Shown here: one piece after another, positions 1 to 24,594 of the stretch
How the letters are laid out: each line of letters begins with the position of its first letter
How positions within the stretch are numbered: position 1 is the stretch's first letter
Notes under the pieces: generated by a model
Told to the model about the DNA's origin: nothing
Databases searched by the model: none
What the model saw: the letters and a program-made list of their open reading frames with translations, nothing else
Position numbers and translations under genes: made by a program
Virus record (IMG/VR): IMGVR_UViG_3300046003_002888
Span: 1 to 24,672 of that record
Strand: one strand, 5' to 3'
Origin: a virus
DNA length: 24,672 bases

Positions 1-107
1 CCACTAGTACCACTAGTTCCACTAGTACCTGAAGTACCAGTTGTACCTGAAGTACCAGTTGTGCCTGAGGTACCTGCTATTCCACTAGTACCACTAGTTC
101 CACTAGT
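1..107 (-). repeat. Collagen-like Gly-Thr-Ser triplet block 3 (partial)
   Basis: Start of a third triplet block, beginning after SFTAA as block 1 does, and running off the left edge of the window still in register. Confidence 0.85.
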
Positions 108-3100
108 AGCAGCGGTAAATGAAGTTCCATTTATAATTAATGAACCAGTAATGTTTACGGATCCAGTAAATTGATGTGTATCAGAAAGATTATCTCCAAA
201 TATATTAGATCCACTAGAGTAAATTACAGATGATGTAATAGTTTGTGCTACAATTGTTTGAGCCGTTAATGTGCCTCTAACAGTAAAGTTATCAGCTGAA
301 GATGCTGTAGCAGCAGTTGTTGCTGTACTAGCATTTCCTACTAACGTAGCTGTTAAAGTTGATTGATTTTCCCACTTAGTTGTTACATTATTATAAACTA
401 GCGGTTGTCCATTAGTAGGTCCTGTTATTGATACATCAGATAAATCTGATAACCTAGTTGTAGCAGCTGATCCACCACCTCCACTCCCACCAATAGATCT
501 AAATATTCCAGCCTGTTTTATTGAATATGTGTTTGTGTCTGTAAAATCAGCATCTCCTTGAAGTACTAGATATGCGGACAATATTGCTCCTGCTGCGGTG
601 TTTGGAGCTTCAGTAAATGCTTCAATATTAATATTAGCAGTGGCTTCTAATAAAGAATCATAAATAGCATTACCATAATAAACATATATTCCTTTTGTAG
701 CTCCACCAGGAAACATAAACACTCTTTGAATGCTATATTTTGCTGGTCCTACAGTAGCAAGAGTTCCGTTGTTGTTATATTGTCCCGGATTAACTGTGGT
801 ATACCCAGCACCTCCATTAGTTTCATATACAAATCCAGATCCACTTGAGTAGTATCTATATATTTTAGATGTGTAAATTCCAGGATCTATTATATAACTT
901 GGATTATTTGGATCTACAGTATAATTTCTACCATCACTATAAGCAGTTCCATTAGTTATTATTATACTTCCTACAGAAGATCCACTTGGATATGTGTTTA
1001 ATCCAGATAGTTTTAATGGACCAAAAGCTTTTATAAAATCACTAGTTCTTTGCTTAAACGCGTATGCAACACTTGGATAAGTAGCAGTAGCGTTTATTGT
1101 TGATCTATTTTGATGAATAACATTTCCTATAGGAATTAACGTGTTATACTGGCCATCGTCAAACGGAGCTCCTTGTGCATATATTACTCCAGTAGATCCT
1201 GATTGTTGAATTGCTATGAACGATTGATCGTATGACGCGCTTAGTGGAGCAATGCTAGCGGATAAGTTTGGCCATGATATGAATGCCGTGGTTGGATACG
1301 GATCATCGCTCAAAGAAGCATTCATAGCAACTACGATACCGCTTCCACTTGAAATTTGATATGTTGTAGATGACTGAGTTGTAATTAACCCACCATGTAA
1401 AAGACCGGTGTATAAGTTGCCTTCTAACCATCGAAGACGAGTAAAGTTGTTGTATCCTTTACTGTTTTGAGCAAAGTATAAATCGTTAGTAGAGCCTGAT
1501 ACGTAGATATACGATGCCGATATGCTAGCATCTATGTTTGTTGGTTGCGGATTAAATTTCAGATATCCTGTCATCGAAGTATCTCCGTAGATATTCACCG
1601 ATGATGAGAAGCTTCCTACTGGAATCGATCCGGATATTGTTATGCTTCCTGATAACAACGTATTTCCTACTAATGTATTATTTCCTATTTGAGTAGTTGA
1701 TCCTGAAATGTTAACACTTCCGGTTACTTCTTGAGTTCCTACAAAGATATTAGAACCACTAGTAAATAAACTTCCAGTAACAATTTGGTTTCCTTTAAAT
1801 ACATTTGAACCTGTTGTAGCGAATGACCCAGTGTCTATTGAAGCACCACCAGCATTTAATGCAAATGATGCTGTAAGAGCATATGAAGCTGATCCAAATA
1901 ATGAACCTGTAAATGAAGTTGCTATTACTGAACCAGTTATATTAAATATACTTCCACTATATGTTAAATTAGCAGATGCTGTAGCAGCATTTGTACTACC
2001 ATCAGACAATAATATTCTTCCTTGTGCTGGGTTGTTGATTGTATTGAAACCAGTTCCACTAGTACCTGCTGTGCCGCTTGTACCACTTGTGCCTGTAGTT
2101 CCTGAAGTTCCTGATGTACCAGAGGTACCAGTTGTGCCGCTTGTGCCAGAGGTACCTGTTGTGCCGCTTGTGCCAGAGGTACCTGTTGTACCTGAAGTTC
2201 CATTTATGCCTGAAGTACCTGAAGTGCCGTTGATTCCACTTGTACCACTAGTACCTGATGTGCCGCTTGTACCATTTACTCCAGAGGTACCGCTTGTACC
2301 AGATGTTCCTGTTGTTCCTGAAGTACCATTTATTCCCGATGTTCCACTTGTGCCGGTAGTTCCGCTAGTACCTGAAGTTCCATCTGAACCTGAAGTTCCG
2401 CTAGTTCCTGAAGAACCTGAAGGCCCTGAAGTACCACTAGAACCTGATGTTCCACTTGTACCTGATGTACCAGACGTACCTGATGTTCCACTAGAACCTG
2501 ATGTACCTGATGTTCCACTAGTTCCATCTGAACCTGAAGAACCGCTTGAACCTGATGTTCCACTAGTTCCTGTTGTGCCTGAAGTTCCGCTTGTGCCATT
2601 CACACCACTTGTACCTGAGGTGCCTGTAGTACCTGAAGTGCCGCTTGTACCGTTTATACCTGATGTGCCACTTGTGCCTGTTGTTCCGCTAGTTCCTGAG
2701 GTGCCAGATGTACCACTTGTACCTGAGGTGCCGCTAGTACCACTTGTGCCAGTGGTACCACTTGTACCGGTAGTACCACTTGTGCCTGTAGTACCTGAGG
2801 TACCACTTGTTCCGTCTATTCCACTAGTTCCTGATGTTCCTGATGTGCCACTTGTACCTGATGTACCTGTAGTTCCGCTAGTACCATCTATGCCTGAGGT
2901 ACCGCTAGTTCCTGTTGTTCCGCTAGTTCCTGTTGAACCTGTAGCTCCTGAAGTACCGGATGTGCCTGAAGTTCCGGCTATTCCAGAAGTACCACTTGTA
3001 CCTGTCGTGCCGCTTGTACCTGAAGATCCAGCAGCTCCTGCTGTATTATAATAAAATTGTCCTGTTGTTTGATCAACGACAACAAATGTAGATAAATTAT

Positions 3101-4595
3101 TTAATGATAGATCTTTAACAGCTAAAGATCCAGTTATTAACACACTACCAGTAAATTGATGTGTATTAGATAATAAACTTCCGAAGCGAGTAGAACCAGT
3201 AACAAACTCTACACTTGATGTTATAGTTTGAACTACTAAAGTTTGAGCAGTAATTGTATCTGTTACTGTAAGAGAACCAGTTATAAAAGTACTTCCAGAT
3301 ATATTAAAATTACCATCGTAAACTAAAGCAGCAGACGCTGTAGCGGAGTTTGTGGTGCCATTTGAAAGTATTATTCTACCTTGAGCAGCATCATAAATTG
3401 TATTAAAGCCAGTACCACTTGTGCCTGATGTACCGCTAGTTCCACTGGTACCACTTATTCCAGCAGTGCCTGAGGTTCCGCTGGTTCCAGAAGTTCCGGT
3501 TGTACCTGAGGTACCTGTTGTTCCACTTGTTCCGGAAGTGCCATCTGTACCAGAAGTTCCACTTGTACCTGTTAAACCTGAAGTACCACTTGTTCCTGAA
3601 GTTCCGCTAGAACCTGCTGATCCAGAAGAACCAGTTCCTCCACTAGTACCTGAAGTGCCAGATGTTCCTGTTGTACCGCTTGTGCCTGTAGTTCCGGATG
3701 TGCCTGAGGTTCCTGAGGTGCCGCTTGTGCCTGCAGATCCATTAGTACCGCTAGTGCCCGAGGTACCTGTAGTTCCTGAAGTACCACTTGTACCTGCTGA
3801 ACCATTTGTTCCAGAAGTACCACTTGTTCCTGTAGTTCCTGAAGTACCCGTAGTACCAGAGGTACCGGTTGTTCCACTAGTTCCTGTTGTACCTGAAGTT
3901 CCAGTATTTCCTGAAGTACCAGAGGTACCATTTATACCAGAAGTACCTGATGTACCTGAGGTGCCAGTAGAACCTGTAGCTCCTGAGGTACCGCTTGTGC
4001 CTGATGTGCCAGATGTACCAGAGGTACCTGATGTACCACTGGTTCCGCTAGTACCACTTGTAGCAGCAGTAAATGAAGATCCATTTATAGTTAATGAACC
4101 TGTTATATTTACAGATCCTGTAAACTGATGAGTATTAGATAGTAAACTACCAAAGCGAGTAGAACCAGTTATAAATTCAGTGCTAGAGGTAATTGTTTGA
4201 GCTACAATAGTTTGAGCTGTTAGTGTACCCCTTACTGTAAAATTATCAGCGGATGATGCAGTTGCTGCATTAGAAGCAGATATAATACTATTGGAGCCAT
4301 AAGGTCCATAGACATGAGAGGCTGTTATAAAAGAAGCTGTTACAGCATTTTGAGCCCAACTAGCTGTACCTGATAAAGAACCAGTAAATGAACCTGAAAA
4401 TGAACCTGTGAAAGAACCAGAAGTACCAGTGCCTGTACCTAATGTAACAATTTGTTCACCGCTAGAACCTGACTTCTTCATAAAAGCCAGACCGTCGTAT
4501 GTATTTAAAGCTATCTCTCCAAAATCAAGAGAAGAAGTGGTAGGAATTCTACCCGGTACCGCAGAACGGCGTAATTTTAAAAATTGATTTGACAT
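1..4595 (-). CDS. Giant collagen-like phage fibre protein (N-terminal 1,531 codons; C-terminus beyond window)
   Basis: I read this frame from ATG at 4595 to the left edge without a stop, so at least 1,531 residues are encoded and the C-terminus is missing. The N-terminus (MSNQFLKLRRSAVPGRIPTT, then a DFGEIALNTYDG segment) is a pattern common at the start of phage tail-fibre proteins and probably anchors it to the virion. Three blocks of Gly-X-Y triplets, mostly Gly-Thr-Ser, follow at 4061-3414 (about 72 triplets), 3038-2055 (about 109) and 107-1 (continuing). Two recurring modules frame the blocks: a TAQTIVAQTITSS...THQFTGSVNITGS unit before each block and a QGRILLS unit after each complete block. 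The region 1924-300 is non-collagen and includes a LSDLSDV segment typical of phage fibre proteins. By analogy the triplets form trimeric collagen-like rods. Receptor binding by the missing C-terminus is an inference. Confidence 0.85.
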   Translation of the reverse strand, partial: MSNQFLKLRRSAVPGRIPTTSSLDFGEIALNTYDGLAFMKKSGSSGEQIVTLGTGTGTSGSFTGSFSGSFTGSLSGTASWAQNAVTASFITASHVYGPYGSNSIISASNAATASSADNFTVRGTLTAQTIVAQTITSSTEFITGSTRFGSLLSNTHQFTGSVNITGSLTINGSSFTAATSGTSGTSGTSGTSGTSGTSGTSGTSGATGSTGTSGTSGTSGINGTSGTSGNTGTSGTTGTSGTTGTSGTTGTSGTTGTSGTSGTNGSAGTSGTSGTTGTSGTSGTNGSAGTSGTSGTSGTSGTTGTSGTTGTSGTSGTSGGTGSSGSAGSSGTSGTSGTSGLTGTSGTSGTDGTSGTSGTTGTSGTTGTSGTSGTSGTAGISGTSGTSGTSGTSGTGFNTIYDAAQGRIILSNGTTNSATASAALVYDGNFNISGSTFITGSLTVTDTITAQTLVVQTITSSVEFVTGSTRFGSLLSNTHQFTGSVLITGSLAVKDLSLNNLSTFVVVDQTTGQFYYNTAGAAGSSGTSGTTGTSGTSGIAGTSGTSGTSGATGSTGTSGTTGTSGTSGIDGTSGTTGTSGTSGTSGTSGTSGIDGTSGTSGTTGTSGTTGTSGTTGTSGTSGTSGTSGTSGTSGTSGTTGTSGTSGINGTSGTSGTTGTSGTSGVNGTSGTSGTTGTSGTSGSSGSSGSDGTSGTSGTSGSSGTSGTSGTSGTSGTSGSSGTSGPSGSSGTSGTSGSDGTSGTSGTTGTSGTSGINGTSGTTGTSGTSGTSGVNGTSGTSGTSGTSGINGTSGTSGINGTSGTTGTSGTSGTTGTSGTSGTTGTSGTSGTSGTTGTSGTSGTAGTSGTGFNTINNPAQGRILLSDGSTNAATASANLTYSGSIFNITGSVIATSFTGSLFGSASYALTASFALNAGGASIDTGSFATTGSNVFKGNQIVTGSLFTSGSNIFVGTQEVTGSVNISGSTTQIGNNTLVGNTLLSGSITISGSIPVGSFSSSVNIYGDTSMTGYLKFNPQPTNIDASISASYIYVSGSTNDLYFAQNSKGYNNFTRLRWLEGNLYTGLLHGGLITTQSSTTYQISSGSGIVVAMNASLSDDPYPTTAFISWPNLSASIAPLSASYDQSFIAIQQSGSTGVIYAQGAPFDDGQYNTLIPIGNVIHQNRSTINATATYPSVAYAFKQRTSDFIKAFGPLKLSGLNTYPSGSSVGSIIITNGTAYSDGRNYTVDPNNPSYIIDPGIYTSKIYRYYSSGSGFVYETNGGAGYTTVNPGQYNNNGTLATVGPAKYSIQRVFMFPGGATKGIYVYYGNAIYDSLLEATANINIEAFTEAPNTAAGAILSAYLVLQGDADFTDTNTYSIKQAGIFRSIGGSGGGGSAATTRLSDLSDVSITGPTNGQPLVYNNVTTKWENQSTLTATLVGNASTATTAATASSADNFTVRGTLTAQTIVAQTITSSVIYSSGSNIFGDNLSDTHQFTGSVNITGSLIINGTSFTAATSGTSGTSGIAGTSGTTGTSGTTGTSGTSGTSGTS
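2055..3038 (-). repeat. Collagen-like Gly-Thr-Ser triplet block 2
   Basis: About 109 uninterrupted Gly-X-Y triplets in the fibre frame, opening with GAAGSSGTSG and ending with GTSGTGFNTI. It is the longest of the three blocks. Triplet register is kept through the whole 984 bases, consistent with selection for a continuous triple helix. Confidence 0.9.
3414..4061 (-). repeat. Collagen-like Gly-Thr-Ser triplet block 1
   Basis: About 72 Gly-X-Y triplets in frame within the fibre gene, dominated by GTS with occasional GTT, GSS, GAT, GPA-like and GIN variants. Synonymous codons for Thr and Ser are mixed throughout, so the repeat is much stronger in protein than in DNA. The complementary strand reads Val-Pro repeats, which are a shadow. 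Confidence 0.9.
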
Positions 4596-10694: not shown

Positions 10695-11243
10695 TTAAAC
10701 AAACTTATCAGATTTGGTTCTATTTTCAGTTATTGTGAGCGGCTGAGTATTAGTGTAATAGAATGACCCACCTTTAGCTAAAGGATGAATATGATCTATT
10801 TCCCAGTATGAGCCATAATTATCCCAGTTCATTTCTGGTGTAAACATTGGTTCAAGATATGCTTTATATTCTTGTATTGTACAGCCTAGATAGTCGATGC
10901 TGCTTTGTGATTTACCTTTTTTAAGATGATGATTTATTAAAGCGGAGATTGATTTTCTTAATCTAAATAATGGATCTGTTGCAGACTTATCTCTATTCCA
11001 TTGACGATAGTAGTCTTTATTGTTGTGGTAGTGGTCATTTACCATCTTAGAATGTTTTACTTTATTTTCAGCTATCCATTTAGAAGAACGAGTATTATGT
11101 TCCGGTTTTACTTTTTGATAATATCCTTTAAATTCTTTATTTAAACATTCTCTACAATAACGATGAAGACCATCTTTTTCTCCTTTTCGTTTACAAAAAT
11201 TATCTATTGGTTTCTCTATATTACAACGTTTACATGCTTTCAT
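10695..11243 (-). CDS. HNH homing endonuclease
   Basis: 182 residues from MKACKRCNIE. Two CxxC pairs (C4/C7 and C30/C33) form an N-terminal zinc finger. The nuclease core WEIDHIHPLAKGG (residues ~147-159) with N165 and N174 further on is the HNH motif (D-H...N...N/H) of phage homing endonucleases. I chose the ATG at 11243. An upstream ATG at 11291 is in frame, but the extension would run through the capsid-gene terminator, which rules it out. The gene is flanked by that terminator and a TATTTATA motif five bases from the ATG. It is a free-standing mobile gene next to the capsid gene, and its target may be a capsid allele lacking it. Confidence 0.85.
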   Translation of the reverse strand: MKACKRCNIEKPIDNFCKRKGEKDGLHRYCRECLNKEFKGYYQKVKPEHNTRSSKWIAENKVKHSKMVNDHYHNNKDYYRQWNRDKSATDPLFRLRKSISALINHHLKKGKSQSSIDYLGCTIQEYKAYLEPMFTPEMNWDNYGSYWEIDHIHPLAKGGSFYYTNTQPLTITENRTKSDKFV

Positions 11244-11248
11244 ACGTG

Positions 11249-11256
11249 TATAAATA
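11249..11256 (-). promoter_or_regulatory. TATTTATA motif before HNH gene
   Basis: Coding strand reads GTATATTTATACACGT then ATG, so only five bases separate motif and start. The motif falls between the capsid-gene terminator and the endonuclease, which is expected if it gives the mobile gene its own promoter. That spacing would leave almost no leader. Confidence 0.45.
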
Positions 11257-11259
11257 TAC

Positions 11260-11289
11260 GAAAGAAAGGCCGGACTACAAAGTCCGGCC
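11260..11289 (-). terminator. Strong intrinsic terminator after major capsid gene
   Basis: On the coding strand a perfect 9-bp GC-rich stem (GGCCGGACT / AGTCCGGCC) with a TTGT loop is followed by TTTCTTTC. On the plus strand the stem is followed by TTTTCTTTTT, so it could also stop antisense transcription. Confidence 0.85.
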
Positions 11290-11298
11290 ATTTTCTTT

Positions 11299-11330: not shown

Positions 11331-12959
11331 TTAGATGGTATTCAAACCAGCAACATAGATTTTTGCGTAGTAATCGGGACGAATCATCTTCTTCGCGTAC
11401 CTAGTCATCAATCCTTTTCTAGGAGTAAAGGTGTTAGGATCGTAAAGCAATGGAGTCATGATCAATGGAACATATGGAGCAAATACAGCACCACACTCAA
11501 GGAATTGAGCGCCTTTGTAACCCATCAAGATAATGTTCTCGGTCATGTAAGGGTTTTTGTAAACCTTGTAACGACTGTTAAGAGAACCGATCTTTTGGAT
11601 ACCAAAGTTGTATTCCATTTTATCACCATCACCATCAGCAGCAAATCCAGGAATTGATTCAAGGATTGTTGATACTGTTGGAGAAGTAACTAAGAAATTA
11701 GCACCACCACGAAGGGTTAACTGATGGATAATGTTAGAAACTTTCTGTAATTTAGTACCTAAAGTTTGGAACCAACCACCTTGTGTGTTGTAGAAACCAC
11801 CAGTTGTAGCAGAATCCTGAACAAAAGCACCAGTACCAGCATCAAATCTTTGGTTGTTAATTGCAGACCATCTTTCAGTTGTGTATGCGTTTTGGATCAA
11901 CATATCTAAAATCTCCAAATCAATCTCCATAGAGATGTATTGAGACAAGATACCAGTCAATTCAGCTTCAGCATCAACACTATGGTAAGCGTTAAGATCT
12001 TGAGCAAATTCCGGAGTCCATTGTGCTTTCAACTTACGAGTTTTAGCAACAATAGCTTCAGATTTCAACTGAACATTGATTTCTGGAATAGAGATTGTAG
12101 TTGGAGCGTTAGTAGGTCCTACTTTAGTTTGACCATCTTCAAAATCACCACGGCTAGTAGCATCTGGTTGTACATCATAGAACAATGTTACAGTTGCAGC
12201 AGTTGGAGACATAGTAGCAGCTACAGCAGAAGCAGTAACAAAGAATGAAGCTGTATTGTTAGATACACTAGTAAATGCTTGTAAGTTTTGAGCAACACCA
12301 ATAGTAGATCCAGAAGTGATAATAAAGGCACGAACACCGTTCAAATCAGAATTTGAAGGCAAAGGAACTAAGATTTTCTTATAACCTGAAGCAGCTGCAG
12401 AAGCTGAGAAGTCAGAATTAAAGTTAAAATCAGCCCAAGTTGCAGATCCAGTACCAGCATTGGGAATAGAAGCAGTGTATTGGTTGATAGAATAACCAAA
12501 CTTACCAGCACCATACAATGAAGCAGAGTTAGGATCCGTTACGTTGTTAGAAGCATTAGCACCATAAAGTGAACCACCACTAACAAATGGGTTAACATTA
12601 GTACCATATTTGAAATCAAGATAGAATACAAGACCAGAAGGTAAGTTCATTGGTTGTACACTAACGAATTCTTTAGCAGCGATTTCACCGAATACACGGC
12701 GAACCAATGGCAATGCAACACCAGACCAGCTTTCGCCGTTGTATGCACCTGCACCACCTGCTTGAGTACCTGTTTGAGAAGCTTCAGAGATCAATTGTTT
12801 AGCTTGATTCTCAAGCAACATTGACATTGTGTTTTTGTCGTTAGTGTTCTTGATACCTTCTAAAAGGCCAGATTTAGTCCACTTAGCCGACAATTTTTGA
12901 GCATCATCCATTACATTCTTGTATTGGTTTGATGATTCGAGTAATTGTTGTACGTTCAT
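11331..12959 (-). CDS. 23: gp23-like major capsid protein
   Basis: 542 residues (T4 gp23 is 521). Family hallmarks are an LLENQAKQLISEAS segment at 48-61, GESWSGVALPLVRRVFGEIA at 75-94, and SVQPMNLPSGLVFYLDFKYG near 100-118. It forms the hexamers of the head shell. T4 gp23 is matured by removal of its N-terminal 65 residues by gp21 at an (I/L)-x-E site. Here I57-S58-E59|A60 is the matching candidate, which would remove 59 residues. The gene follows the scaffold after a 29-base A/T-rich gap without Shine-Dalgarno sequence, and ends ahead of tandem hairpins. Codon use looks more GC-rich and selected than in its neighbours, as expected for a very highly expressed protein. Confidence 0.92.
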   Translation of the reverse strand: MNVQQLLESSNQYKNVMDDAQKLSAKWTKSGLLEGIKNTNDKNTMSMLLENQAKQLISEASQTGTQAGGAGAYNGESWSGVALPLVRRVFGEIAAKEFVSVQPMNLPSGLVFYLDFKYGTNVNPFVSGGSLYGANASNNVTDPNSASLYGAGKFGYSINQYTASIPNAGTGSATWADFNFNSDFSASAAASGYKKILVPLPSNSDLNGVRAFIITSGSTIGVAQNLQAFTSVSNNTASFFVTASAVAATMSPTAATVTLFYDVQPDATSRGDFEDGQTKVGPTNAPTTISIPEINVQLKSEAIVAKTRKLKAQWTPEFAQDLNAYHSVDAEAELTGILSQYISMEIDLEILDMLIQNAYTTERWSAINNQRFDAGTGAFVQDSATTGGFYNTQGGWFQTLGTKLQKVSNIIHQLTLRGGANFLVTSPTVSTILESIPGFAADGDGDKMEYNFGIQKIGSLNSRYKVYKNPYMTENIILMGYKGAQFLECGAVFAPYVPLIMTPLLYDPNTFTPRKGLMTRYAKKMIRPDYYAKIYVAGLNTI

Positions 12960-12988: not shown

Positions 12989-14020
12989 TTAATATTTAGT
13001 AATACCTGCAAGCATTTGCCACCTAGACATTGTTTCGTCCACTTGAACGATTTGTTTTTTAGGTGCTACACCAGCAGCTTTAGAAGCAAATCCTAATGAT
13101 TCTTTGATAGTGCTTTTCTTTGATTTTACGATAGCATTATTCAATGATTCATAAACAGCTTTAGCTTCTTTCGCAGTATTTGCTTTGTCAAATTGAGCAA
13201 TTACTTTGAGTTTTTGTGATTCAGTTAAATTTCTAGCTTTGAATACTTTGTTTACATAAAGCAACTTAGCATTAAGAAGATTAACTTCGTTAAGTTCATT
13301 ACGGAGAGTTTCAATTGTATTGATAGCCTCTTTCATTTCATCTTTATCTTCTTTCTTTTTAGCTTTTTTAGCTTCATACATACCTTCATCTTCGCCTGGA
13401 TCGCCCATGGCATCAAGTTCAGCTAATAGTTCTTCTAAATCGATTTCGTCGATTTCTTCTTCATCGGAAATAGAAACTTCATCACCACCTTCTTCACCAC
13501 CGAGATCCATTGACATTTCTTCTTCACCACCCATATCTCCCATGTCAGCGCCCATTTCGTCGCCGCCCATTTCAGATGCAATGATGTCTTTAATCATGTC
13601 TTTAAGTTCATCCATAGTTAAGTCTGTGATATTTTCACCTTCCATTTCAGATTCGTCTTCTTCATCTTCCATTTCATCTTCTTCTTCCTCAGCTTCTACT
13701 TCTTCATCTTCATCTTCATCATCTTTAGCTTCATTCATTTTATCTTCATCCTTGCTTAATTCAGCTAAGATTTCAGATAAATCAAAATCTTCTTCAAGAT
13801 CTTCTTTTTCATAAAACATACCACCAGGTCTGTCTTCTTTAGGTGCAGATGGTAAATCAGCTTCATAATCCATATCCATTTCTTGTAACTTTGCAGATAA
13901 CATAGATTGGAGTTTTGGAGCAAGAGCTTCTTCAAGAGCAACTTTTGCGTTTGCTAACGCAGCTTCGCGGACAGCTTTAGCGTCGGCGATAGCCTCTTTA
14001 AATAGGTCTTTGTTTGACAT
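12989..14020 (-). CDS. 22: gp22-like prohead core scaffolding protein
   Basis: 343 residues, very acidic in the middle (residues ~75-210 are mostly Asp/Glu with Gly/Met). A helical coiled-coil core follows at ~228-300, containing LLNAKLLYVNKVFKARNLTE and SQKLKVIAQFDKA, the most conserved part of gp22-type scaffolds. It builds the internal core on which gp23 assembles and is degraded by the prohead protease. The C-terminus ends MSRWQMLAGITKY, a motif shared with two other proteins of this window. It is the only gene here with a clear Shine-Dalgarno sequence (AAGGAG, nine bases before the ATG) and a long structured leader, suggesting strong or controlled translation. It precedes the capsid gene as in T4. 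The low-complexity acidic region explains the Ser-rich shadow on the opposite strand. Confidence 0.85.
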   Translation of the reverse strand: MSNKDLFKEAIADAKAVREAALANAKVALEEALAPKLQSMLSAKLQEMDMDYEADLPSAPKEDRPGGMFYEKEDLEEDFDLSEILAELSKDEDKMNEAKDDEDEDEEVEAEEEEDEMEDEEDESEMEGENITDLTMDELKDMIKDIIASEMGGDEMGADMGDMGGEEEMSMDLGGEEGGDEVSISDEEEIDEIDLEELLAELDAMGDPGEDEGMYEAKKAKKKEDKDEMKEAINTIETLRNELNEVNLLNAKLLYVNKVFKARNLTESQKLKVIAQFDKANTAKEAKAVYESLNNAIVKSKKSTIKESLGFASKAAGVAPKKQIVQVDETMSRWQMLAGITKY

Positions 14021-14166: not shown

Positions 14167-15234
14167 TTATTTATATACTCCTGTAGTCATAGAATTTGTT
14201 ACGCTATCTATTTTAGCTTGTTGTACTCGTTCTAGGCTATCTATTTTTTTAGCATTTTCAACTTCACGCTTAAAGGTATCATTAGAACTACCACAAGAAG
14301 ATAAAATAACACTAGCCATAGCTGCTGTTAAAAGTCCCTTATTAGCTAATGATTTTACTTTTTTTAATATGGTATCGAAATCAATTCCTTCATTAATATC
14401 TCCAAGAACAGCATCTACTAATTCTTGTTCTTTTGAATCTAATTGTTCTTCTTCATTTAGTTGATTTTCTTTAAGAAGACCAGCTAACAACTGCATTCTT
14501 TTTACTTCGTTAATTGCTGTTTTATTTTCTTCTAAAGCGTCAACATATGGTGGTTGTTCCCATTCCAATCCAATAACTTCTTCAGGATTGTCAATGTCAT
14601 TTCCATAAATACCATTTAAGTCTTCAGATGATATAGATTGTTTTTTACCATTACTTAATGTTAAAAATAAGTCTAATCCTTTACCAGCGAACATTGGAAA
14701 TGGTTGTTTTTCAACTTTAACGATAGTTGGAATATTACCTTCAGAAACTACTTTAGTTTCATTGATAATATCAGCTAAGAACTGCATTCTTTTTACTTCG
14801 TTAATTGCTGTTTTATTTTTCTTACCTTCTTCTAAAGCGCTATATTCACCTGATTGAAATGCTTGTTCCATATCATTGCGTTGTTCCATATCATCATATT
14901 CACCATCGCTTTTTTTAAAATCCCGCAAAACATTAGCAACAACCTCATCAACAGCTTCACCCCCTTCGTAAACATCCATATTGGGTTTGTATTCTTCTTT
15001 TGCATACTCATCAATCAAATCATAATTTTCATCACAGAATTCCTTAAATCCTGGGTTAGATTTAAATTCGTAGCTAAGTCCGTTTTCAACTGAAGACATA
15101 AATTTTTCATAACGTTCGTCAGCAGTAATATTTGGATCTTCTCCAGGAATATCACCGAATCCTTCACGAAGATTTTTTAGTGTTTTATTAACGATTTTGT
15201 CTAGGTTGTCGAATGAATTATCTAATTTAGCCAT
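14167..15234 (-). CDS. Prohead-region protein with duplicated RMQ motif and internal lipobox-like segment
   Basis: 355 residues; family not recognised. It has a charged, acidic N-terminal half. The peptide NKTAINEVKRMQ occurs at residues 140-151 and again at 237-248, each followed by a LADII or LAGLL segment. The C-terminal part has a positively charged start (KKVKSLANKG, 291-300) and a hydrophobic stretch (LLTAAMASVILSSC, 301-314). It ends in a polar tail (GSSNDTFK...). LSSC matches a lipobox, although it is far from the N-terminus. I280-N281-E282|G283 fits the T4 prohead protease consensus, so cleavage could expose this segment. Position between protease and scaffold suggests a core or internal head protein, possibly ejected with DNA. 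Function is inference. Confidence 0.65.
   Translation of the reverse strand: MAKLDNSFDNLDKIVNKTLKNLREGFGDIPGEDPNITADERYEKFMSSVENGLSYEFKSNPGFKEFCDENYDLIDEYAKEEYKPNMDVYEGGEAVDEVVANVLRDFKKSDGEYDDMEQRNDMEQAFQSGEYSALEEGKKNKTAINEVKRMQFLADIINETKVVSEGNIPTIVKVEKQPFPMFAGKGLDLFLTLSNGKKQSISSEDLNGIYGNDIDNPEEVIGLEWEQPPYVDALEENKTAINEVKRMQLLAGLLKENQLNEEEQLDSKEQELVDAVLGDINEGIDFDTILKKVKSLANKGLLTAAMASVILSSCGSSNDTFKREVENAKKIDSLERVQQAKIDSVTNSMTTGVYK
14489..14528. repeat. 40-base direct repeat, copy A
   Basis: Identical over 40 bases to 14780-14819 and offset by exactly 291 bases (97 codons). It encodes the NKTAINEVKRMQ peptide on the minus strand. Confidence 0.9.
14780..14819. repeat. 40-base direct repeat, copy B
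   Basis: Second copy of the in-frame repeat inside the 355-residue gene. Flanking bases are also related (CAGCTAA and TTCTAAAGCG on the plus strand), which indicates a slightly larger, partly diverged duplication. Confidence 0.9.
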
Positions 15235-15267: not shown

Positions 15268-15885
15268 TTAACATAGAGGACACACCCCGGTATTTGTGCA
15301 AATTATTTCAGTTATTAAACTATTTACTTTACTATAATCTTTTATAGATTTATGTTGCTTAGATTCAGCTAATGACATATATGCCATTGGAGTTGAAGGT
15401 ACTGATACTAGATCCCAACATAGTAATTCAAAATCGTCTTGTACTTCTACTGTTTCACCTAATTGTTTAACACTACCCATACCACGAGATGATATACCTA
15501 AAGGTATACCTGATAATATTAATGCTTTAGCAATATTACCAGCAGGTGTAGGTAATAATTGTAGTTTACCCATTAAATCGTTTCCTTTCCACCAAACTTC
15601 AGTAATAACATGAGATGCATTTGATAAATTAACAACAGATGCTTCAGGATGATCAAGTTCTCCTAAAGCAGTACGTGTTTTTACTGGTCCATCTGCATAT
15701 TTTTTAACTTCTCTTTCAAGAATTTCTCGAGGATATACACGACCATTACCATTTTTTTGTTCAGCTTCTTGTAGTTTACCTACAAGGGTAACAAGAGATT
15801 TACCTTCACCTAACTGTTTATTTTCTAATATTGTTAGTTTAGCTGATTGAAATGGGGTATGATCTATTAATAATGATTTATTCAT
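15268..15885 (-). CDS. 21: gp21-like prohead protease
   Basis: The T4-type serine protease (herpesvirus-assemblin-like fold) cleaves scaffold and capsid proteins inside the prohead. In the longer reading (ATG at 15904-15906, 212 residues) catalytic candidates are H86 in GELDHPE and S139 or S140 in GISSRG. NGRVYPREILEREV at 54-67 and LVSVPSTP (~171-178) are further family segments. I chose the second ATG, at 15885 (205 residues), because family members usually begin close to an LLID/LLIE segment and this ATG lies one base after the stop of the preceding gene. The alternative at 15906 overlaps that gene by 20 bases. The C-terminus ends CTNTGVCPLC, with three cysteines of unknown meaning. A gp21 role is well supported by its place upstream of gp22 and gp23. 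Confidence 0.88.
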   Translation of the reverse strand: MNKSLLIDHTPFQSAKLTILENKQLGEGKSLVTLVGKLQEAEQKNGNGRVYPREILEREVKKYADGPVKTRTALGELDHPEASVVNLSNASHVITEVWWKGNDLMGKLQLLPTPAGNIAKALILSGIPLGISSRGMGSVKQLGETVEVQDDFELLCWDLVSVPSTPMAYMSLAESKQHKSIKDYSKVNSLITEIICTNTGVCPLC

Positions 15886-15886
15886 A

Positions 15887-17290
15887 TTAGTATTCGTTTT
15901 CAGCATATTGAGGACTCATATCATCACCACCATCGGCAATTTCATTCATTACTTCACGTACAAGTTTTTCTAATGATTCTTTAAAAGCATCCATTTTATT
16001 TGCTTTGCTTGCTCCCATTTCTAATGAGGTACCTAAACCTTTATTAGCAGATGGTTTTAATTTTAAGCGATAATAATGAATTGGAAGTTGATCATCCATT
16101 TCATCAGAATCAGCCATGACATTAAACTGTAATGCTAGTTTTTCAATTGCTTCTTTAGGTAAAATATTCCAATAATCATATCTTAGAATAGCTTCATCTG
16201 GGTTATTTGGGTTTTGTTGAAATTCAATTTTATCAGATAAAGCTTTTAATGTTGGGTTGGCATTAGGACCATCAACATATCCCATAGCTTTTTTTACAAT
16301 TTCATTAGGTTCACCTCTTATATTTAGTTTAGCTTCTTGTAGTGATTTAATAGTTTTCATTTTACCACCAGTAGGTTTAAACTTTTGTAAACCACGAACT
16401 GATTTAGCGTTATGAGTTAATTCACTAACACCTTTAACACCGCTGTTAGTTTCTTTTTTAGCTTTGTTTGATGATGCTTTAGCTTTTTCAAAGCCTTTAA
16501 CAGGTTTCATTGCATTTACTTTATCAACTAATTCAGTTTCAGCTGCTACTTCTTTTTTAAATGCTACAGGAGGTTTAGCTTTAGGAGCTGAAGGTGATTC
16601 AATTCCTGAAAGTTTAAGTGCGGTGTAATAGAATGGATTTTCAGCTAAATGGTCTAAAGCAATTTTTTTAGCTTTATCTATATCATCTGTATGTTCCAAT
16701 TCAACTTTAATACCCATCCTTAATTCTTGTGGATGGATTTGATTTGGATGTAATTCTTTTTTAGGTTCTCTTTTCTTTTTACCTTCATATAATTCACTAG
16801 CGTCTTCTGTTTTTTCGATGTCTGAAACACCTGCACTATCAAAATCAGCATCACCACCTATAACTGGAGCATCGAATCTAGCTGAATAAGCATTACCGTT
16901 TTCATCTCTTCCAAATACAGTGCCAAAAGCTCCTTCATTACCTTCTTCATCGGTATCATAATCAACATCAGCATTATCCCAGTCCCACTCAATTTTAAGA
17001 CCATCGAAAGCTTTTTCACTAAGCCCACCTTCAAAGTCATCAAATTTAGTATATTTACCTGCTTCTTCATCTTCAGCTTTAGCAATCATATCAATGAATT
17101 CTTCATCTTCATCTTTTATATCCATATTTTCACTTAATATACCCTTATTTTTAAGGATTTTAACTGAATCTTTAAATGAAGTTACATTAGTAATGTATTG
17201 AGGTAATGACATACGTAAACTTCTCATGAAGTTATATTGTGACATTCTACCTTCCATTAAGTCAATGTACTGTGTTTTTATACTTTTCAT
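15887..17290 (-). CDS. DUF5661-like prohead-region protein with C-terminal VRE motif
   Basis: 467 residues. N-terminal ~170 residues are acidic, with MRSLRMSLPQYITNVTSFKD near the start. Residues ~176-233 contain HPNQIHPQELRMGIKVELEH followed by KIALDHLAENPFYYT, which I recognise as the DUF5661 pattern (G...E.EHT.D...A..IA.DHL.E...YY). A Lys/Ala-rich linker follows, then a mixed region. The last ~30 residues carry LEKLVREVMNEIADGG, similar to segments in two other proteins here. The gene lies six bases after the 43-residue basic gene and ends beside the protease start, so it probably encodes a core or minor head protein. The catalytic or structural role of DUF5661 is not known to me. Confidence 0.7.
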   Translation of the reverse strand: MKSIKTQYIDLMEGRMSQYNFMRSLRMSLPQYITNVTSFKDSVKILKNKGILSENMDIKDEDEEFIDMIAKAEDEEAGKYTKFDDFEGGLSEKAFDGLKIEWDWDNADVDYDTDEEGNEGAFGTVFGRDENGNAYSARFDAPVIGGDADFDSAGVSDIEKTEDASELYEGKKKREPKKELHPNQIHPQELRMGIKVELEHTDDIDKAKKIALDHLAENPFYYTALKLSGIESPSAPKAKPPVAFKKEVAAETELVDKVNAMKPVKGFEKAKASSNKAKKETNSGVKGVSELTHNAKSVRGLQKFKPTGGKMKTIKSLQEAKLNIRGEPNEIVKKAMGYVDGPNANPTLKALSDKIEFQQNPNNPDEAILRYDYWNILPKEAIEKLALQFNVMADSDEMDDQLPIHYYRLKLKPSANKGLGTSLEMGASKANKMDAFKESLEKLVREVMNEIADGGDDMSPQYAENEY

Positions 17291-20762: not shown

Positions 20763-22343
20763 TTAGCTTAATATCCATGATACGTCTTCAAATCCCCCGC
20801 GGCCGTCATTCATCGCAAATGGGTTTGGTTGTCCAGTAGGTAATAATGGACCCATCTCATAGCTTGTTCTAGTAATATTAGATACCATTGCTCGATTTAA
20901 ATCCATTCCTTGTTCGTAAAATTTCATTGCTGTATCTCTTACAAATAATCCTATTCCTAGTGACATTACTAAGTCGTCATTATATCCGTTTTGTGCTTGA
21001 GCCTTACCATGTTGCCAAATAAACACACGTAATTCTTCTAATAAACGTTTAGAACGAAAAATAAAAGCCTTTTCACGAATATACGACTCCATTTTTGCTA
21101 CAACAAGTGGTCTTGTTTTAGCGGATGTAGTAAAACCAGGAACGGTTTGTTCCTTTTCCATTTTATCCATCCATTTATCTATATTTACCTCACCATAAGT
21201 ACGAGGTGAATAATATAATTTTTGATATCCTTTTTCTATAATTGTATTAATTACATCCCATCCGATATTTGCATTCTCGACCACCAGTAAAGCATTGTTA
21301 TACTCAGTAGCAACAGAAACAAGCATATTTCCAAAAGTGCGGGTATCAATTTGCGATTTATATTCAGCCACTTGCTCACACGTTGTCGCATCGATGATAT
21401 GGAATGCAGAATAGTCACTACTGTCACCGCGAGCCACATCAGCACATACAATATACTGCTTACTATAATTAGGGTACTGCCAAACCCAAAAATCACCACC
21501 CATAAAGCGGCGCTCGATAGGATCTTGTATAAATGTTTCTTCATAAAATGATAATAAATCAGGTTCAACTACTGAGTTTCCAGAGCCTAAAAAGTCACAG
21601 TCATACTCTTGAGCAAATTCACGAGGTGACATATTTGTTCTTTCTCTTTGCTCCCAGGCCTCATCTCTATCGGGGTGTAAATTCCATCTTAATTTAATTG
21701 CTTTGAAATCATTTTTACTTATTTCAGCCTCAGTATACATTCTATGAAACCAGTTACCAACTCCATTTGGAGAAGATAATGCAATGATACCTCCACCAGT
21801 AGCAATTGTAGGTTTAATACTTGTATATATTTTATCAATACCTTCAATAAACGCAGCCTCATCTATTAATAATAAAGATACTGCGTAAGATCGACCAGCA
21901 TCTGATGCGGCTGATGTAGCTACAATTTGAGAATTATTAGCTAATTTTAATGATAATTTATTATCTGATACAGGTTTTTGATTGCCTTTTAGCCAAGAGG
22001 GTAAATTATTGTACATAAATTGTACCTTTTCAACCATCCCTTTAGCAGTTTCTTGTTTAGTTGCTATACAAAGTACTGTTTTATCTTTGTTAAATAGCAT
22101 TGTCCACAATGAATATCCTGCAGACAGTGTTGATATACCTAGCTGTCTTGATTTATTAATAATACTAAAACGATTATTTCTAAACTCATTTAATACCTCT
22201 TCCTGGAATGGGTATAGATGAAACAATACTCTTCCTTTAATAGGGTGTGTAATGTAACAGTATTTGCGGAAAAAATGAATTGGATCAGAATAACATTTTA
22301 TATATTCTTGTTTAATTATTTCTTTAATATTTGTCTGATTCAT
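20763..22343 (-). CDS. 17: gp17-like terminase large subunit (packaging ATPase-nuclease)
   Basis: 526 residues. The ATPase domain has a Walker A-position motif SRQLGIST at 65-72 (the T4 equivalent is SRQLGKT), Walker B LLLIDEAA at 157-164 with catalytic E162, and the coupling motif LSSPNG at 189-194. The RNase H-like nuclease has D302 (CADVARGDSSDYSA), E356 (LVVENANIG) and D456/D457 (YNDDLVMSL), which together form the metal site. It drives DNA into the prohead through the portal and cuts it. The usual P-loop lysine is Ile70; K64 just upstream might substitute. Its ATG overlaps the stop of the GIY-YIG gene in an ATGA arrangement, so it is probably translationally coupled to it. The next gene is the portal. 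Confidence 0.93.
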   Translation of the reverse strand: MNQTNIKEIIKQEYIKCYSDPIHFFRKYCYITHPIKGRVLFHLYPFQEEVLNEFRNNRFSIINKSRQLGISTLSAGYSLWTMLFNKDKTVLCIATKQETAKGMVEKVQFMYNNLPSWLKGNQKPVSDNKLSLKLANNSQIVATSAASDAGRSYAVSLLLIDEAAFIEGIDKIYTSIKPTIATGGGIIALSSPNGVGNWFHRMYTEAEISKNDFKAIKLRWNLHPDRDEAWEQRERTNMSPREFAQEYDCDFLGSGNSVVEPDLLSFYEETFIQDPIERRFMGGDFWVWQYPNYSKQYIVCADVARGDSSDYSAFHIIDATTCEQVAEYKSQIDTRTFGNMLVSVATEYNNALLVVENANIGWDVINTIIEKGYQKLYYSPRTYGEVNIDKWMDKMEKEQTVPGFTTSAKTRPLVVAKMESYIREKAFIFRSKRLLEELRVFIWQHGKAQAQNGYNDDLVMSLGIGLFVRDTAMKFYEQGMDLNRAMVSNITRTSYEMGPLLPTGQPNPFAMNDGRGGFEDVSWILS

Positions 22344-22864
22344 TTTTGTTTTGTTTTACCTTTATTAGGGCTTACTCTACCTTTTAAATCAGGTCTAGGT
22401 TTACCTTTTTTTATTTGACTCAATAATTCTCCAAAGCCTTCAGGTTTTGGTTTTTTCATTTTTTGAATTATATCTTCAGTATAATGTTTTGAATGATTTT
22501 GTAATGCTTTACTAATTTTATTATTTCTTTCTATGTTGTTATAACATTCATGACCTATTTTACCTTTACGGATTTTTTGTTTTGTTTCTTCAGTATGTGA
22601 AATAGGACCACTTCCTCCTTTTTTTCGTTTATTTACTACTTCAAACCCCCATTGCCTAAATTGCTCAATCCAATATGTTTCTAAAGGTTCCCAATCATTA
22701 TGATTTAGTGAATTTATTTCATCTATTATAGTATACTGTATCTGTAGACCATATTTAGTTTGATGTCCATAAAACCGGTCATCATTTTTGGTTTTACCAA
22801 TATAAACCTTATTAGTACCTGGTTTTATATTTTCTACTAGATATATTTTAGTTGATGTACTCAT
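22340..22864 (-). CDS. GIY-YIG homing endonuclease with NUMOD3-like repeats
   Basis: 174 residues. KIYLVENIKPGTNKVYIGKT at the N-terminus is the GIY-YIG core in the variant form IYL...VYIGK, followed by R31 in DRFYGHQ and a glutamate in LETYWIEQF. The C-terminal half has short basic repeats (HTEETKQKIRKGKIG, then NNKISKALQNHSKHYTEDII, then a KGKPRPDLKG segment), the pattern of NUMOD3 DNA-binding motifs. It is a free-standing mobile endonuclease gene. It lies between a terminator and the terminase gene, with ATGA overlap to the latter, and a TATTTATA motif three bases from its ATG. That placement suggests insertion at the 5' edge of the terminase gene without disrupting it. Confidence 0.85.
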   Translation of the reverse strand: MSTSTKIYLVENIKPGTNKVYIGKTKNDDRFYGHQTKYGLQIQYTIIDEINSLNHNDWEPLETYWIEQFRQWGFEVVNKRKKGGSGPISHTEETKQKIRKGKIGHECYNNIERNNKISKALQNHSKHYTEDIIQKMKKPKPEGFGELLSQIKKGKPRPDLKGRVSPNKGKTKQK

Positions 22865-23649: not shown

Positions 23650-24594
23650 TTATTTTATAATTCCTGCATAAAACTGCATTCTATTTTTAGTCCACTCACT
23701 TAATTCTTCGGGCTCCGCTTTTTTAGTCATTTTAGATTGACGCTTTTGTAAATATTCACTACCTGCTAATAAACCATCCATTTTAGTTTGTAATCTAGCT
23801 TTAAGATCACGTAAATTTTGTAATTCATTCGATGGTGTATCTGTAAGATCACCCATAGATGGTCTAGAGCGTTTTGCTTTTAATATGTCGCTTTTTACTT
23901 TAGATAAACGATTTTCTAAATCTGAATATTGCATAAATGCTTCATAATCATCATCTGACATACCGCCTGCTGAAACATTAGAGGTTTCAATTTCACCTGC
24001 TTCTGGTTCTTCTTCATCTCCACCCATCATTTTAGCAAATGATGCTTCAATTTCTTCATCGCTCATATCACCTTCAATACCACCTTCAGGTCCTTCATAT
24101 CCTGCTGGTGCGTCTTCACCATCTTCATCTCCTACTTCAGCAGCTGCTGGTTGTGGACGATTTAAACGTGGTGCTGTTTGCCCACCTGCTTGGTTAATTG
24201 CCCCAGCAGCAACAAGAGCCATAAAATCAGCGTTGATTGGATTTTGTTTATCATATCCCAATTCACCTGCTACATCTATTTTAGACATTGGTTCGCCTGT
24301 AGCTTGCATTGCCGCAATAATACGATTTTTCTTACCACTAAAACTACCAGCATTAGTACCCGGAGCTAACTCATAACGTACTGCTACGTTAGCCATTTCA
24401 TCAATTTCACCTTCTGCAACTTCTTCTCTACCAGAAGCTAAATCGCCTTTTTTAACATTTAAAGCAGCAATTTTTTTATTAATAGCATTTAATTCAGCGT
24501 CTTTAGCTGCTTTTTCAGTAGATGATATATCGGCTTCATTTATTACTTCTTTAATAGCTTCACGAACAATTCTATGTAAATCTGATTTTTTCAT
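23650..24594 (-). CDS. Acidic probable head-internal protein with terminal targeting-like motifs
   Basis: 314 residues; family not recognised. N-terminal amphipathic helix LHRIVREAIKEVINEAD (6-22) has I18-N19-E20|A21, which fits the T4 prohead protease consensus. Residues ~88-135 (KKNRIIAAMQATGEPMSKID, then VAGELGYDKQNPINADF) resemble a winged-helix DNA-binding unit with a terminal LVAAGAI. Residues 150-210 are acidic and Gly-rich. The last 90 are a helix with many Lys/Arg, ending KNRMQFYAGIIK. The N-terminal VRE helix and C-terminal RMQ motif both recur in other head-region genes. I suggest a core or packaged protein. It starts 24 bases after the stop of the gene at the right edge, and a TATTTATA motif lies in that gap. 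Confidence 0.6.
   Translation of the reverse strand: MKKSDLHRIVREAIKEVINEADISSTEKAAKDAELNAINKKIAALNVKKGDLASGREEVAEGEIDEMANVAVRYELAPGTNAGSFSGKKNRIIAAMQATGEPMSKIDVAGELGYDKQNPINADFMALVAAGAINQAGGQTAPRLNRPQPAAAEVGDEDGEDAPAGYEGPEGGIEGDMSDEEIEASFAKMMGGDEEEPEAGEIETSNVSAGGMSDDDYEAFMQYSDLENRLSKVKSDILKAKRSRPSMGDLTDTPSNELQNLRDLKARLQTKMDGLLAGSEYLQKRQSKMTKKAEPEELSEWTKNRMQFYAGIIK

Follow-up and report, generated by a model that had tools for sequence, protein, structure and literature searches.

The prohead gene cluster and its phage

The stretch of DNA analysed here, hereafter the window, is the 24,672-nt (24.7-kb) virus record IMGVR_UViG_3300046003_002888, and loci labelled L### are its relatives in viral contigs. 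Its head genes run on the minus strand in the order protease, 355-aa protein, scaffold-like protein and gp23-type capsid protein:

15268-15906, minus strand: gp21-type prohead protease gene, the likely cutter (PF03420, E 2.2e-34; phrog_207)
14167-15234, minus strand: gene for a 355-aa protein, a proposed prohead-core polyprotein (open frame flanked by protease and scaffold genes)
12989-14020, minus strand: acidic scaffold-like protein (role suggested by position and composition)
11331-12959, minus strand: gp23-type major capsid protein (PF07068, E 2.9e-75)

The protease gene directly adjoins that of the 355-aa protein, for which searches of Pfam and PHROG returned no match. The scaffold-like protein ends in RWQMLAGITKY (12989-13024 including the stop, minus strand), a tag-like C-terminus without a cleavage site. 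Among cultured phages, Flavobacterium phage immuto is closest by its capsid protein (60.8% identity); a Flavobacterium-like host therefore seems likely, and the window phage, which is T4-like, probably infects Flavobacterium-type bacteria.

Elsewhere in the window, a 1531-aa open frame with long Gly-Thr-Ser repeats of the GTSGTSGTTG type (1-4595, minus strand) is tail-fibre-like, and two proline-rich plus-strand frames (1831-3051 and 3421-4128) appear to be antisense artefacts of it. Two homing-endonuclease-like genes, one HNH-like and one GIY-YIG-like by eye, lie at 10695-11291 and 22340-22864 (minus strand), beside the capsid and terminase genes.

A cleavage triplet followed by a lipoprotein-like signal

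The C-terminal part of the 355-aa protein reads as a linker, a candidate cleavage site, a cryptic signal and a short remaining piece, referred to below as the payload:

14389-14442, minus strand: conserved acidic linker LDSKEQELVDAVLGDINE, residues 265-282, with the P1 Glu as its last residue
14338-14388, minus strand: n-region of the cryptic signal, residues 283-299
14296-14337, minus strand: h-region of the cryptic signal, residues 300-313
14170-14295, minus strand: payload, a putative 42-residue lipopeptide whose first residue is the lipobox Cys314 (codon 14293-14295)

The original prediction had described a run of basic and then hydrophobic residues up to LSSC314, behind the site I280-N281-E282/G283 (14386-14397, minus strand; the slash marks the predicted cut). 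Its residue numbers and coordinates were exact on re-check, and matrix ranking and conservation confirm that the arrangement is not due to chance. The protein holds ten L/I-x-E triplets, so a single such site means little alone; the weight of E282 comes from its conservation in 23 homologous modules: the Glu never varies, and P3 is aliphatic (L, I or V) in 23 of 23. Like substrates of gp21-type proteases, INE/G combines L/I-x-E with a small P1' residue and is encoded together with a protease of that type. Similarly, C314 has the lipobox, basic n-region and hydrophobic h-region of a lipoprotein, but this signal begins at residue 283 of 355 and not at the translated N-terminus.

The signal was scored with a position matrix that we derived from the N-termini of 27 lipoproteins encoded in 400 kb of a Tenacibaculum genome (Flavobacteriaceae) and applied to every Cys in 2,255 phage genes (3,220 Cys, 2,649 of them internal). 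C314, with a score of 11.4 against a leave-one-out median of 13.3 for true lipoproteins, ranked first both among all 3,220 Cys and among the internal ones, and ranks 2-6 of the internal Cys also fell to members of the same module. A chance lipobox is thus ruled out by this rank together with conservation of the module. A signal-peptidase-I matrix separated poorly, yet its best internal Ala nonetheless belonged to a module member. An independent scan that made no use of the module profile examined 693 internal hydrophobic segments and found 69 to be signal-like, 22 of these with an upstream [LIV]xE; 20 of the 22 were module members. The module profile also matched immuto gp030, an ordinary N-terminal lipoprotein (E 0.0014). 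The AlphaFold model of the module was uninformative (pLDDT 52), too poor to judge whether the acidic linker masks the signal.

Relatives were gathered by searches with the C-terminal piece and the protease and then with DNA patterns across viral contigs, and a profile search identified 23 members of one module, including the window. Each consists of an acidic linker near LSPEEQxIVDDIL, the [LIV]xE site (P1' is G, A or S in 21 of 23), a stretch of ~12 to 20 residues with several lysines that ends in KG[LF], and ~12 hydrophobic residues; the KG[LF]xT core is kept in all 23. Eight modules end in a lipobox (the window, L004, L067, L101, L104, L175, L177 and L051), and most others in a signal-peptidase-I-like sequence, namely QAQ in L019, L036, L076, L103, L172, L183 and L296, PAQ in L090 and SAQ in L184; L048 has no clear signal-peptidase site. 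Lipobox and AQ-type ends thus interchange among relatives while the remainder of the module is kept, as expected of a working signal peptide. The expectation that homologues would conserve the site together with the Cys held for the triplet and the signal-like segment, present in all 23 modules, but the Cys is not universal. Likewise, the hydrophobic segment, whose retention had been taken as decisive, is kept in the 23 modules, but one sister phage (L005) has lost it entirely.

The module also occurs in a cultured phage, within the tagged protein gp003 of immuto (YP_010114415.1), which makes the idea developed below directly testable. Most close protease relatives lack it within the DNA retrieved, and it is therefore an accessory element. 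A whole-protein search of viral contigs gave tag matches only, and one alignment (A1) was set aside as too variable for a scan of the collection. Host origin of the module was considered and rejected: a search of four Bacteroidota genomes, run without a positive control, gave no match, and among 58 pattern matches in bacterial genomes, many of them in TPR-like repeats, none was a significant module match. Outside the main family, signal-like segments also follow [LIV]xE at L077:6615-7736, L029:7206-7709, L217:2517-3491 (LNE/IAIGKAIKNLTVAGLLALMSLGGAKAQQ), L203:6527-8908 and L083:6634-6951, which suggests that the arrangement arose more than once.

Targeting-like tags, carriers and payload exchange

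Upstream of the linker, the 355-aa protein contains two copies of AINEVKRMQxLAxxxxE, which belong to a motif family with 181 unique copies:

14758-14808, minus strand: first capsid-targeting-like tag AINEVKRMQFLADIINE, residues 143-159
14467-14517, minus strand: second tag of the same family AINEVKRMQLLAGLLKE, residues 240-256

Tags of this RMQxLAG type are N-terminal in 143 of the 181 unique copies, and 133 of these 143 have an [LIV]xE within six residues, against a background of 13%; when N-terminal and internal tags with a site are pooled (n=146), the site falls at one offset in 118. In relatives, the tags mostly form the N-termini of varied small proteins, many of them encoded in the slot between protease and scaffold genes. 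Like the capsid-targeting sequences (CTS) of T4, they end in a protease site. T4-type CTS also stand at the extreme N-terminus; the window tags, at residues 143-159 and 240-256, do not, and those of L004 and L067 do. Other module members begin with different tags, MxNFDLRKFL and MKQHELRQLIREEI. By analogy, the motif may act as a capsid-targeting sequence in the manner of the T4 internal-protein CTS.

Directly after the protease, L012, L013, L039, L044, L047 and L073 encode tagged ~200-aa proteins with long hydrophobic stretches, possibly a family of membrane-active head cargo. Putative metalloprotease-like genes (L018:6627-8132, L051:3718-4548, L052:6991-7827 and L083:6996-7844) in the protease-scaffold slot carry HELIHA, HELVHA or HELIHAVDP motifs and begin with MxxLxDILxE. 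Elsewhere in the window, a 314-aa protein (23650-24594, minus strand) has another type of tag at its N-terminus, MKKSDLHRIVREAIKEVINE/A, and the scaffold-like motif NRMQFYAGIIK at its C-terminus.

Differing carrier proteins bear the module, either as a fusion or as an insert; many of them are tagged, and some are also found without it. Thus the carrier known as immuto gp069 (75 aa) recurs in L101 as a 180-aa protein with module and lipopeptide in mid-protein, followed by a second site, TIKE/S; a 452-aa protein of L103 has, relative to its 211-aa relative in L003, an insert with sites on both sides; and L178 and L183 have ALNE/A and then a further tag behind the payload. A second [LIV]xE behind the payload is also present in L104, L175 and L177. 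The payloads comprise the 42-residue lipopeptide, a helical family of ~115 residues, one of ~160 residues and several singletons. Those of the window type show 51-80% identity in six relatives, and selection on the payload is moderate. Family searches recognised no payload function, as relatives gave only weak matches or matches to carrier parts, and the AlphaFold model of the L019-type payload, all-helical with a pLDDT of 79, matched nothing in the PDB at E <= 0.001 (best 0.44). The presence of such varied payloads behind one arrangement suggests that these phages package proteins whose export becomes possible only once the head has matured.

Sister phage L005, whose protease is 97% identical, retains the first part of the protein and one tag, followed by a stop. 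The flanking DNA matches the window at 90% identity on one side of the missing piece and at 99% on the other, and the tag region of L005 also agrees with the window's second tag region at 51 of 53 bases (96%). This pattern suggests that the payload was lost or exchanged through recombination between tags.

Proposed export signals in head cargo

In T4, gp21 cuts after L/I-x-E, and CTS-tagged proteins enter the core and are later ejected (PMC9026906, PMC3012670). The original prediction had proposed that maturation in the prohead releases a ~73-residue C-terminal piece, which is packaged, ejected with the DNA and inserted into the cell envelope, and this interpretation is partly supported. Judged on sequence, the cleavage triplet, the signal-like segment, the tags and the modular insertion and exchange all stand; from them we infer cutting at E282, packaging of the 73-residue piece, its ejection, and Sec export and lipidation in the next cell. 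Our best overall explanation, which has about an even chance of being right, is that the 355-aa protein is a polyprotein of the prohead core that ends in a payload unit bearing a concealed export signal. The capsid-targeting-like tags would bring the protein into the prohead core, where the gp21-type protease would cut behind [LIV]xE, including at E282, and leave G283 as a new N-terminus. A lipoprotein signal peptide buried ~280 residues deep in the precursor would thereby become N-terminal inside a closed head, from which it could not be exported. The 73-residue piece would then pass with the DNA into the next cell, where the host's Sec machinery, lipoprotein diacylglyceryl transferase and signal peptidase II may convert it into a 42-residue envelope lipopeptide; relatives with signal-peptidase-I-like ends would instead release their payloads into the periplasm. 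Burial in the precursor would block export in the producing cell and postpone it until after ejection. The role we favour for the payload is the least certain part of this explanation: it would alter the envelope immediately after entry, either to exclude superinfection or to assist the entry of DNA.

The same segment could serve other ends. The freed piece might be ejected and its hydrophobic helix insert itself into the inner membrane, as a pilot or ejection peptide for DNA that uses neither Sec nor signal peptidases. The basic stretch and hydrophobic helix would suit such a peptide, and conduit-forming ejection proteins are known elsewhere (P22 gp7, gp16 and gp20; PMC8402733); we consider it unlikely, as it leaves the lipobox and AQ-type ends and the variety of payloads unexplained. 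Decidedly less probable is a tethering role, in which the segment anchors core proteins at the inner membrane while the prohead assembles, until the protease cut frees the prohead. T4 proheads do start on the inner membrane via gp20 and YidC and leave it once gp21 has cut (PMC9026906), and uncut SPN3US proheads remain membrane-bound (PMC10052503), but the core sits inside the shell, the module is an accessory missing in most relatives, and a tether would work without lipobox or AQ ends and without conserved payloads of various kinds behind them.

About as improbable as the tether is a segment without export function, either a captured fragment of a host lipoprotein or a packing helix of the core. 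It would fit the high gene turnover in the protease-scaffold slot, the loss in one sister phage and the moderate selection; on the other side stand the site, KG[LF]xT core and signal layout kept in 23 modules of diverse contigs and, for the host fragment, the lack of a match in the four Bacteroidota genomes (no positive control). An internal translation start, which would yield an ordinary lipoprotein in the producing cell, was rejected as extremely improbable. Met codons do lie near the site in some relatives (L051, L178, L183 and L296), but no start position is conserved, and between linker and h-region neither the window nor 13 of 22 relatives have an in-frame ATG, GTG or TTG; the window signal thus lies inside the gene and does not open a second one.

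With the hidden export signal as the preferred reading, the window protein would be a variant of tagged internal head proteins. It resembles T4 IPI, IPII, IPIII and Alt with their CTS in having a short tag that ends in an L/I-x-E gp21 site, and in pairing small, varied accessory payloads with T4-type head genes. Unlike the T4 CTS, the tag has a different sequence and the payload can lie inside a polyprotein, and whereas the T4 payloads described act in the cytoplasm, cutting here would, as read from the sequence, expose an export signal. The ejection proteins of the giant phages SPN3US and phiKZ, whose propeptides are removed by a gp21-like protease, are likewise head proteins cut after Glu and ejected into the cell, as is proposed here, but an export signal at the new N-terminus is not mentioned for them (PMC10052503). 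The n-, h- and lipobox layout and the high matrix score recall Bacteroidota signal-peptidase-II lipoproteins, whose signals do not start ~280 residues into a precursor; the SDDFE-like surface export motif (LES, Flavobacterium johnsoniae consensus; PMC5080379) is absent after Cys314, where the sequence reads CGSSND. The superinfection-exclusion lipoproteins Ltp of Streptococcus thermophilus phage TP-J34 and Llp of T5 are also small and phage-encoded, as is proposed here, but they carry their signal at the N-terminus and are produced in the infected or lysogenic cell. We found no sequence relation of the window protein to them.

No report of export signals inside prohead cargo turned up in the literature searched, and a demonstration of export would allow the arrangement to be put forward, plausibly, as a new principle. 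For a group of T4-like phages, we tentatively propose, at somewhat less than an even chance, that the prohead protease serves as a switch for export activation. Payloads would be carried silently within head proteins, acquire a functional Sec or lipoprotein signal only on being cut in the sealed prohead, and be exported by the next host cell as soon as the DNA has entered. The module flags candidate payloads from sequence alone. If the proposal is true, these phages would deliver periplasmic and envelope proteins through a platform that shuffles its payloads, and an export signal unmasked by the protease would allow the envelope to be remodelled before any gene expression, without premature export in the producer.
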